NCBI RefSeq assembly: GCF_003945345.1
Contig: NZ_AP019308.1
Coordinates: 2,728,001 to 2,792,000, forward strand
From: Paenibacillus baekrokdamisoli
GTDB lineage: Bacteria > Bacillota > Bacilli > Paenibacillales > Paenibacillaceae
Direction: 5' to 3'
DNA: 64,000 nt
Part shown: positions 851 to 22,999 of the stretch, in pieces
Layout: each line of letters opens with the position of its first letter
How positions within the stretch are numbered: position 1 is the first letter of the stretch
The notes under the pieces: model-generated
Seen by the model: the letters and a program-made list of their open reading frames with translations, nothing else
The model's database searches: none
Told to the model about the DNA's origin: nothing
Made by a program: the position numbers and the translations under genes

Positions 851-2641
851 TTAAATTTTAAATGTAGCTACCGACTTATCTAACCCCTCCACAATCGTAT
901 GCAAATGCTCAGCGGATTTAGCAATATCCTCCATTAATATCAACTGCTCTTTCGTTGCTCCTGCGACACTTTGTGTGTTGATCAGACTCTTTTTGGCAGT
1001 ATCCGCGGATTGCTCCATCGTTGCACTAACCTCCTCTGAGCTAGCAGACATCTGCTCTGTAATCGCAGAATTATCGTGGATTTGGCCTGCGATATTCTGG
1101 ATGGATTGACGAATCTGTGTGAAGCTTTCGTTGACTTGAGTCATCATTTCTCCACCTTGAGCAACTTCCCCCAAAGTAGCAGCCATGACGTTAGATGCGT
1201 CAGACATATCATTTCTCGTAGAGATTACTAATTGATTGATGACATCCGCAGATTCAAGAGATTGCGTCGCTAATTTCCGAATTTCTGCAGCTACAACAGC
1301 AAAACCTCGTCCATGTTCACCCGCTCGCGCTGCTTCAATTGAAGCATTCAATGACAGGATGTTCGTTTGATTCGAGAAATTCGTTATATTAGCCGCAATG
1401 GAGCCAATTTCATTCGAGCGCTCATGAAGCTGGTTCACAATTCCCGACAATTGACCCATCATGTTTCTAATTCCCGCCAGTTGGGTACTAAGCTGATCCA
1501 GCTGGGTCTGACCGTGCTCCGAATCATGTGATGTTCGCAAGGAAGAATCCGAAATGGAAGAGGTATTCTCTGCAATCCGCCCTATCCCGACCGCCATCTC
1601 TTCAATGGCGCGAGCCGTTTCCTCAGCTGCACGAGACTGAATCTCCATACACTCGTTCACTTGATTAATCTCCTCCGATACTTGTGCAGCCGAAATGGCT
1701 GACTGCTGGGAGGTCGTATTCATCTGCTCGGATGCTCCACTGACCTGCTGGGCATGCTCTGAAATCGTAACGATTAGGTTCCTTAAGTTCTTTATCATTG
1801 TTTCGAGAGCTTGGCTTATCATACCGAATTCATCATTGCCATGTTTCCGGAATGGTTGCTCTCTTAAATCGCCTTGTGAGACGGAATTCGTCAATTGCAG
1901 GACATATTTTGCCGCTCTTGAGAGGTTACGGATGATGAAATATCCGATGATGACCATGAGCAATGAACAACCAGCAACGCCAAATAGGCTGGATTCTTGA
2001 AACGTTGACGCCTCTTTTTTGATTCTCTCTACTTCATTATTTGCGTGCTCATCCAGAATTTCTCCAATGACATTAATTCCGCCTCGAGCATTCTCAAATT
2101 CTGCGTTTAGTTTAGGGTCATAGAAAATTGGACTGCCATCCGTTATAGATTTATTTGCGAGAGCAAGCCATTGAGGAAATGTCTCATGGAATTTATCGAC
2201 AATCATAAGAATAGTTTGGTTGTCATCCTTCTTCGATAATTGCTGCAGTCCATTTGCTTTAACAATTGCAACAGCTTGTTCGATTCTGTCTGTTGCTTGC
2301 TTCGCATTATCGCTCATTTCTGCTTTTAGCTTCTTCTTGGTTTGCTCATCGAGCGACTTATCCTTGAGTGATTGGAATGCGGTTAAGGATTGATACAGAT
2401 CGCGATCTGCATTAAGGACGAGGGTATTCACTTGATTCGTCGTTAAGAACAACGATTTTGACATCGTGTTTATTGCCGAATCATAGACAAACATCCAATA
2501 GAACGTCGACCCCAAATAGAGTGTGATAGGAAAAGCAATTAATAAAATTAGTTTTGTACGAAGAGTCAGGGAACGCTTTTTCTTCAACATACTCATCATC
2601 CTTTTGACGTCGATTTTAGGTAGTAACACAGAGGTCACCAT
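851..2641 (-). CDS. Methyl-accepting chemotaxis protein
   Basis: A 596-residue transmembrane chemoreceptor. A first membrane segment (about 30-52) is followed by an extracytoplasmic region of ~160 residues with helical, charged composition (four-helix-bundle type sensor). A second membrane segment (about 217-240), a HAMP linker and the long cytoplasmic coiled-coil signalling domain come next. The hairpin tip that contacts CheA/CheW is evident as [20 protein letters not shown]. The ligand is unknown. The gene is monocistronic: a terminator follows it and the upstream gene is separated by ~215 nt containing a dispersed repeat. Start choice is uncertain. AGGAG abuts the ATG at 2641, while ATG 2590 (MLKKKRS) has AAGGA 8 nt upstream and would give a 579-residue protein. 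Confidence 0.93.
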
Positions 2642-5487: not shown

Positions 5488-5530
5488 CCTGATGCTCCCC
5501 CTTCTCTTTCACTCTGCTCTGGTAACGAAT

Positions 5531-5584
5531 AAAAGACCCTCGGCTAGACCCGCCTTTGAAGGCGGAACTTGCCGAAGGTCTTTT
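5531..5584 (-). terminator. Riboswitch expression-platform terminator
   Basis: On the minus strand AAAAGACCTTCGGC (5584-5571) pairs with GCCGAGGGTCTTTT (5544-5531). An inner stem CCGCCTT/AAAGGCGG tops it, and TTTTAT follows. The 5' arm is also the conserved 3' part of the aptamer and the inner stem contains the 3' strand of P1, so aptamer folding and termination exclude each other. That predicts a ligand-activated (ON) switch. Confidence 0.85.
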
Positions 5585-5664
5585 ATCCCTACGGTGTTGC
5601 AAGACGTATTGTCCTATGCCGATTTCGCTCGGTTCGCAATTTAGCGACCCTAGAAACCCTTCCG
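5563..5664 (-). ncRNA. ykkC-family riboswitch aptamer (subtype 2-like: ppGpp or PRPP class most likely)
   Basis: Read on the minus strand the ~102-nt aptamer has, in order, CGGAA (5' strand of P1), CTAGGGTCGC, GCGAACCGAGCGA, ACACCGTAGGGATAAAAG, then ACC, GGCAAG and TTCCG, which closes P1 perfectly with CGGAA. These blocks match my memory of the ykkC core (CUAGGG, CCGAG, ACACC, GGGA-AAAAG). The 3' end (AAAAGACC, GGCAAGUU) is closest to the PRPP class. ABC transporter genes of the natA type are, as I recall, associated with the ppGpp class. The guanidine-I class has a different 3' block (CCCGGGAGA), so guanidine is less likely. A promoter precedes it and a terminator overlaps it. Confidence 0.8.
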
Positions 5665-5675
5665 ATTAATGTAAC

Positions 5676-5704
5676 ATTCTACCATCGTATTCACAGATTG
5701 ACAA
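5676..5704 (-). promoter_or_regulatory. SigA-type promoter of the riboswitch-exporter operon
   Basis: On the minus strand TTGTCA (5704-5699) and TAGAAT (5681-5676) are separated by 17 nt. Transcription would start about 5 nt before the aptamer's P1 strand, as expected for a riboswitch leader. Confidence 0.7.
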
Positions 5705-14351: not shown

Positions 14352-14987
<636 letters not shown>

Positions 14988-15084
14988 TTATGTGAATTGC
15001 CTGTTTAGCGTAGGGCAAGCCCACTTGCGCGCTCAGCGCTAGCGGAGAATGTCCATTCCAAGCAATTCGATTCAACTATTCACG

Positions 15085-15110
15085 CTACCTTGACAGCCTC
15101 TCTGGACTGA
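15085..15110 (-). promoter_or_regulatory. PyrR RNA-binding loop (anti-antiterminator)
   Basis: The minus strand reads TCAGTCCAGAGAGGCTG followed by TCAAGG, the conserved PyrR recognition sequence of Bacillales pyr leaders (CAGUCCAGAGAGGCU). It lies 30-50 nt after the promoter. PyrR-UMP bound here would stabilise this hairpin and let the terminator at 14948-14979 form. Confidence 0.92.
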
Positions 15111-15138
15111 GTTAAAGGTACTGCTATTCATCATAGGA

Positions 15139-22630: not shown

Positions 22631-22999
22631 AAAAAAGCCCCGCCCCCAAAAAGGGACGAGACTAGCTCGCGTTACCACCCTTGTTCCAAGAACGTTGTGC
22701 AGTAGATGAAGCTCTCAAGGGAAAGCTTATCTAGGGCGCACCGTTGCATGGCACCTTAGTCACGAATGTTATCATTCGCGTTCCTGTTAACGGTGGACTT
22801 CCGGCGGCACTTAGTACACTCGGATTAGAGCACGACACAGCTTGCATAGCGCTCGATCAACCAAATGGTTCAGCTCCGCTTCTCAGAGAGGATATTCCGC
22901 GAACGTTCATACACCGATTCTCAGCAAATCATCGGCTCTCTGGGGTATGAATCAATTGGCGTACTCGTTCTCGTCAACGAATTCGTTTTGATTATTATG
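22631..22999 (-). ncRNA. Isoleucine T-box riboswitch leader of ileS
   Basis: The conserved T-box sequence AAGGGTGGTAACGCGAG is at 22682-22666 on the minus strand. It is followed by a terminator stem GTCTCGTCCC/GGGGGCGGGGC (22662-22637) and a T-run (22636-22631). Upstream, stem I contains the AGTA motif (GAACGAGTACG), CAGAGAG, and a specifier region GAATATCC with the isoleucine codon ATC at 22893-22891. Uncharged tRNA-Ile would pair at specifier and T-box, form the antiterminator and let ileS be transcribed. Confidence 0.95.

Follow-up and report, generated by a model that had tools for sequence, protein, structure and literature searches.

A probable (p)ppGpp riboswitch of ykkC subtype 2a upstream of an ABC-2 exporter operon in Paenibacillus baekrokdamisoli

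Which ligand is sensed by a ykkC-family leader whose core and downstream genes had seemed to point to different classes? The leader precedes an exporter operon of Paenibacillus baekrokdamisoli, within the window analysed here (the whole stretch of 64,000 nucleotides, contig NZ_AP019308.1, positions 2,728,001 to 2,792,000). A sequence-only reading had described a promoter, a ykkC aptamer and an overlapping terminator at 5531..5704, and had left two options, namely ppGpp with an unusual core or PRPP (or another nucleotide) controlling an exporter. Sherlock et al. (2018) reportedly described the ppGpp riboswitch as ykkC subtype 2a. By analogy with published members of this subtype, the window leader is very probably a (p)ppGpp riboswitch working as a transcriptional ON switch.

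On the minus strand (5704-5528), a promoter-like site, a ykkC-family aptamer and a strong hairpin follow one another in this order, and natA and two PF06182 permease genes come next (Table 1). The promoter scan, the core blocks, the score of covariance model R2 and folding confirmed the architecture that had been read from the letters. The promoter score is weak by itself (2 sites of such score compared with an average of 1.1 in shuffles); judged by eye, a similar promoter pair occupies the same place in many relatives' leaders. The terminal helix is named P1 in the ppGpp papers and P0 in the PRPP papers. A second terminator-like hairpin (5943-5910), which the scan flagged on the plus strand and which has a T run after it on the minus strand, separates the pyr genes from the leader. 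Elsewhere on the minus strand of the window, Rfam 15 placed a T-box leader (22649-22986, 103.2 bits) and, upstream of the pyr genes, a PyrR binding site (14947-15122, 56.5 bits against a gathering score of 54).

Table 1. Positions of leader and exporter features in the window
Feature	Position	Strand	Observation
Promoter-like site TTGTCA-17 nt-TAGAAT, extended -10	5676..5704	-	10/12 consensus matches, TG before the -10
ykkC-family aptamer, predicted ppGpp type (subtype 2a)	5564..5667	-	R2 73.1 bits; R1 110.9 bits, but R1 was trained on it
Terminal helix, 5' strand GGAA, paired to 5567-5564	5660..5663	-	GGAA/UUCC invariant in 19/19
P2a, 5' strand GGTTTC, partner GAAATC 5626-5621	5653..5658	-	100% of cells paired; one pair UA to CG in 4/19
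CCGAGCG block; C where guanidine-I has A and subtype 2 a pyrimidine	5626..5632	-	C invariant in 19/19
ACACC; first C is the counterpart of the C pairing the guanine of ppGpp	5593..5597	-	Invariant in 19/19; role according to the accessible text of PMC6031431 and PMC10687018
P4 hairpin CCGUAGG/CCUUCGG around GAUAAAAGA; U, not G, at the position-96 equivalent	5572..5594	-	Position placed by rule
Intrinsic-terminator-like hairpin, 5' arm being the aptamer 3' end	5529..5586	-	-38.9 kcal/mol alone
natA, ABC-type ATPase, 333 aa	4486..5487	-	PF00005
ABC-2 permease 1, 272 aa	3671..4489	-	PF06182
ABC-2 permease 2, 276 aa	2857..3687	-	PF06182

Core blocks CUAGGG, CCGAGCG, ACACC and GGGAUAAAAG were all found in the leader, in agreement with the family pattern of CUAGGG, CCGAGNG, ACAC and AUAAAAG in a helical frame. 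A search of the 7.26-Mb genome with R2 returned the aptamer at 73.1 bits (E 5.4e-15), and its earlier placement in the ykkC family was thus upheld by both blocks and score. Training of R2 used 42 gene-labelled ppGpp-type leaders, a set free of natA loci and of members of the window's family, in an alignment aided by model R1, which was itself trained on 19 aligned leaders including that of the window. The sole other R2 match in the genome at E <= 0.001 was the Guanidine-I RNA (33.4 bits). R1 matched 170 of 398 genomes sampled from the phylum, and a search at the DNA level recovered the leader from 27 of 59 genomes; both counts include the genome of origin. According to the accessible text of PMC6031431, position 49 tells guanidine-I (A) from subtype 2 (pyrimidine); we infer that its equivalent is the C of CCGAGCG, a pyrimidine and not an A in 19 of 19 leaders.

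The core was nearly invariant in the 19-leader alignment, and the P2 loop varied in length from a few to about 50 letters. The proposed helices were paired in 94.9% of cells (91.3% in shuffles) with a covariation score of 0.129 (0.074 in shuffles), values reached by 0 of 500 shuffles in either case, and 17 cells were altered on both sides, compared with 5.8 in shuffles. Weaker signals came from the count of doubly changed pairs (5 compared with 3.3, 28 of 500 shuffles as high) and from further pair types (14 compared with 12.8, 157 of 500 as high). The both-side changes were located in P2a, P2b and P3, while the terminal helix, which subtype 2a adds from the conserved ends, is uninformative on covariation because GGAA/UUCC never varies (19 of 19). 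The pair just outside it was C-G in 20, T-A in 5, T-T in 1 and G-G in 1 of the 27 leaders, window included. The leader folded far more stably than its shuffles (z -5.59), mostly owing to the terminator-like hairpin.

As far as the accessible parts of PMC5912903 and PMC6031431 go, G96 is kept in more than 97% of PRPP aptamers and absent from ppGpp aptamers, swapping it switches the ligand, and the genes reported downstream are those of branched-chain amino acids, glutamate synthase and natA for subtype 2a and of purines for 2b. For 101 family matches, downstream genes were found and clustered, the clusters being named by Pfam on one representative each, and the position-96 equivalent was placed as the third letter before the GG closing P4, a rule calibrated on primers printed in the available portion of PMC6031431. 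G stood there in 36 of 36 purine-gene leaders, in 1 of 41 amino-acid-gene leaders (L102, ilvB) and in 0 of 6 natA leaders, window included; 5 of the 41 and 2 of the 6 loci came from a pattern scan favouring one 3' block, and the counts without them are 1 of 36 and 0 of 4. Before other genes (n = 18), 8 were G, 9 were not and 1 was not placed. T (U) occupied the position in all 27 leaders (window and 26 relatives). The window aptamer has U in place of the G that marks subtype 2b, and it combines a kept C75 with the absence of G96, the pair of marks given for subtype 2a in the available text of PMC6031431 and PMC5912903.

The 3' block (ACAC to end) agrees with this. In a nearest-neighbour test that labelled 76 of 77 loci correctly on leave-one-out (one error, L105), the window had five amino-acid-type neighbours out of five, grouping with leaders before ilv, glt, leuA and liv genes. 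Purine-gene (PRPP-type) leaders typically read AAAAGCCCAGGCGGGUAGGUUUC here, the window AAAAGACCUUCGGCAAGUUCC, so that the earlier view of the block as nearest to the PRPP class had to be abandoned. With it went the supposed conflict between core and gene, because the 3' block groups with amino-acid-type leaders, and both this block and position 96 agree with a ppGpp-type gene context. By eye, P4 is laid out like that of the Sulfobacillus leaders before ilvC (L094, L095); a Sulfobacillus acidophilus ppGpp riboswitch has been crystallised with ppGpp, according to the accessible part of PMC10112252. A scan of the genome contigs with a 3' block ascribed to a crystallised ppGpp aptamer gave no match, and a second scan with the block read from L036 gave 8 stretches.

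Some leaders of the survey carried G at the position-96 equivalent yet preceded no purine gene: L102 (ilvB), L125 (binding-protein-dependent permease), L150 and L049 (SNF symporter), which are possible class exceptions. PRPP-type leaders L131 and L133 precede a gene for a PnrA-like (Bmp) binding protein (Pfam on the L133 copy), ppGpp-type leaders L108 and L136 precede a 396-aa protein (no Pfam match in the L136 copy), and L127 holds two PRPP-type aptamers close by (301-398 and 1184-1282), one before purC and the other before a 690-aa gene.

Scored over its whole length, the window aptamer reached 73.1 bits with R2 (ppGpp-type) and 71.7 with R3 (PRPP-type), 1.4 apart, whereas most members outside the lineage separate by at least 10 bits. 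R3 was trained on 35 gene-labelled PRPP-type loci, and the R2 and R3 alignments were both fitted to R1; alignment A3 also contained L038 and L049 (before SNF-type symporters), counted as 'other' in the position-96 tally. Among loci unseen in training, natA loci L050, L057 and L099 scored 14.6 to 16.2 bits toward R2, and PRPP-type loci L089, L127, L131, L133 and L145 scored 11.6 to 20.3 bits toward R3. The 26 relatives divided into 19 leaning to R2 and 7 leaning to R3, and natA locus L097 leaned to R3 by 0.7. A column-by-column total placed the window at +10.4 toward the amino-acid type, the lowest and median values of that group being 10.6 and 37.7 and the highest purine-type value 5.6; the part from ACACC to the end contributed +9.9, and the part before ACACC was neutral (+0.5). 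R2 and R3 were dropped as a basis for the class call, the window being nearly tied though most other members separate. Because of this near tie, the class was called from the 3' block and position 96, the region in which published work likewise places ligand specificity (PMC5912903 and PMC6031431, in their accessible text). Of the suggested ppGpp aptamer with an unusual core, the unusual part survives in the position of the whole aptamer at the lower margin of the ppGpp-type group (73.1 against 71.7; +10.4), while a PRPP-like 3' block does not. To judge from these comparisons, the window lineage appears to be a divergent member of the ppGpp class.

The genes downstream had been read as an exporter fitting the ppGpp class, and both points hold: the operon encodes a natA-type ATPase (PF00005) and two PF06182 permeases, and natA is among the published subtype 2a contexts. 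R1 matches and an orthologous permease (at least 49% identity) coincided without exception: 27 of the 59 genomes, that of origin included, had both, and the other 32 lacked an R1 match and had a best permease relative of 38%. NatA and both permeases lay 3' of the RNA in all 20 neighbourhoods fetched, out of 26 other RNA-bearing genomes. In distant genomes, natA came after ppGpp-type leaders at L099 (with both permeases), L050 (with one permease) and L057; among named Paenibacillus loci, all three genes followed at L097 and, as far as gene calling showed, permease 1 at L093. R2 matches in two genomes without a permease ortholog were a PRPP-type RNA in tandem with a purine riboswitch (G033) and a Guanidine-I RNA (G028), and the four weak second R2 matches fetched from permease-bearing genomes were Guanidine-I. 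The exporter was the sole ppGpp-type target found in its own genome. In a PDB sequence search, NatA was similar to many ABC ATPases (best ABCA3 and 4yer), and permease 2 had no match at E up to 1.

It is highly improbable that a PRPP riboswitch (subtype 2b) controls the exporter. The R3 score, 1.4 bits under that of R2, would allow it, and pyrE, which together with pyrF lies upstream of the RNA in 16 of the 20 neighbourhoods, has a product that uses PRPP, but the window is without the G96 of all 36 purine-gene leaders, its 3' block goes five out of five with the other class, and Rfam 15 found no purine riboswitch beside the leader, whereas L089, L115, L124 and L209 have one. The guanine-PRPP riboswitch tandem is a published arrangement, and in an Rfam control L089, L115 and L124, which have PRPP-type letters, carried a purine riboswitch directly upstream in three of three cases (L089, before a phosphoribosyltransferase gene, is among the 'other' genes of the position-96 tally). 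As a pointer to PRPP the upstream pyr genes were set aside, since the terminator-like hairpin at 5943-5910 intervenes and the core is without G96. The chance of a Guanidine-I riboswitch is negligible: no other ykkC-family model appeared when Rfam was run permissively, but its 19.2 bits are far under the gathering score of 63 (RF00442), the CCGAGNG block has C and not A, and the same genome holds a separate Guanidine-I match of 80.9 bits (L001, 3100454-3100557).

A ykkC scaffold retuned to another nucleotide, such as a subtype 2c-like (d)NDP or pppGpp only, seems quite improbable. It would account for the P4 core peculiar to the lineage (26 of 26 leaders read CCUUCGG or CCUCCGG) and for the lineage's place between the R2 and R3 model groups, and for a clostridial natA aptamer an approximately tenfold preference for pppGpp is given in the accessible text of PMC12373219; yet the guanine-reading C is kept in 19 of 19 leaders, and, in comparisons of ppGpp-type with PRPP-type sequences, the distant natA leaders sit well within the ppGpp-type group. 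That the lineage is a retuned sub-class (for example pppGpp-preferring) tying the onset of the stringent response to export of some compound is an unlikely proposition, and assignment to the (p)ppGpp class of subtype 2a is preferred.

Rfam 15 gave no ykkC match at gathering score for the window leader. The sequence-only reading had been prepared to give way if no ykkC-family model hit the leader; Rfam 15 indeed offered none at gathering score, while R2 matched at 73.1 bits. Refutation by way of Rfam would have misfired, because the ppGpp-type loci tried (L003, L036, L047, L050 and L061) likewise got no ykkC match at gathering score, five out of five. Rfam 15 seems to be without coverage of the ppGpp subtype, and automatic annotation misses the window leader. 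Two PRPP-type aptamers in tandem with a purine riboswitch, L124:304-409 (77.2 bits) and L209:2009-2112 (67.6 bits), pass the Guanidine-I gathering score, and PRPP RNAs can therefore be misnamed guanidine riboswitches. In one relative (L211), a pair of Guanidine-I riboswitches lies back to back, one at 2004-2104 (-) and the other at 2261-2387 (+).

The 5' arm of the terminator-like hairpin is the aptamer's own 3' end, AUAAAAGACCUUCGGC...UUCC, as had been recognised from the sequence, and the leader holds two mutually exclusive hairpins. Of the eight letters in AAAAGACC, six or more find a pairing partner in the terminator arm in 24 of 27 leaders. The full leader folded at -64.8 kcal/mol with the terminator and at -39.8 with the aptamer forced; given this greater stability of the terminator form, the aptamer would have to win by folding first and by binding ligand. 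The terminator pattern scan of the window did not flag the hairpin at 5529..5586, probably owing to its short T run. This run, TTTTATTCGTT, is weaker than in most relatives, and termination may for that reason be leakier in the window leader.

In the proposed mechanism, the 3' part of the ligand-free aptamer (P4 3' strand, linker and terminal-helix 3' strand) would pair with 5544-5529, and RNA polymerase would stop before natA. During starvation (p)ppGpp would rise and its guanine would be paired by the C of the ACACC block; P4 and the terminal helix would then hold, locking away the terminator 5' arm, and natA and both permeases would be expressed (transcriptional ON switch). The ppGpp and PRPP classes are both ON switches with read-through upon binding, as stated in the available sections of PMC6031431, and by analogy with these published members the window switch would work in the same direction.

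The leader thereby gains a likely ligand class, and in related bacteria a little-studied exporter family would be linked with the starvation signal; as RNA and exporter occur so strictly together, a simple knock-out could test a role of the exporter in starvation. A search of open-licence PMC papers found none pairing 'ppGpp riboswitch' with Paenibacillus. The aptamer class, the ON mechanism and the natA association are already in print (PMC5912903, PMC6031431 and PMC12373219, in their accessible parts), and what is added here is the class assignment, the strict RNA-exporter co-occurrence and the Rfam gap.

With the ppGpp riboswitch of subtype 2a, as described in the accessible text of PMC5912903, PMC7266159 and PMC10112252, the window leader shares the core blocks, the terminal helix, the absence of G96, the overlapping terminator and natA downstream; it differs in its lineage-specific P4 (CCGUAGG/CCUUCGG) and in a whole-aptamer score at the group's lower margin, and its ligand is predicted. 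The overall fold and most core letters are also shared with the PRPP riboswitch, subtype 2b (PMC5912903 and PMC6031431, as far as available), from which the leader departs in being without G96 and in having the 3' block and gene context of the ppGpp class. The natA aptamer of a Clostridiales bacterium (PMC12373219, accessible part) is, like the window leader, a ppGpp-class aptamer before natA; its roughly tenfold preference for pppGpp was measured, and it is likened to the window leader by description.
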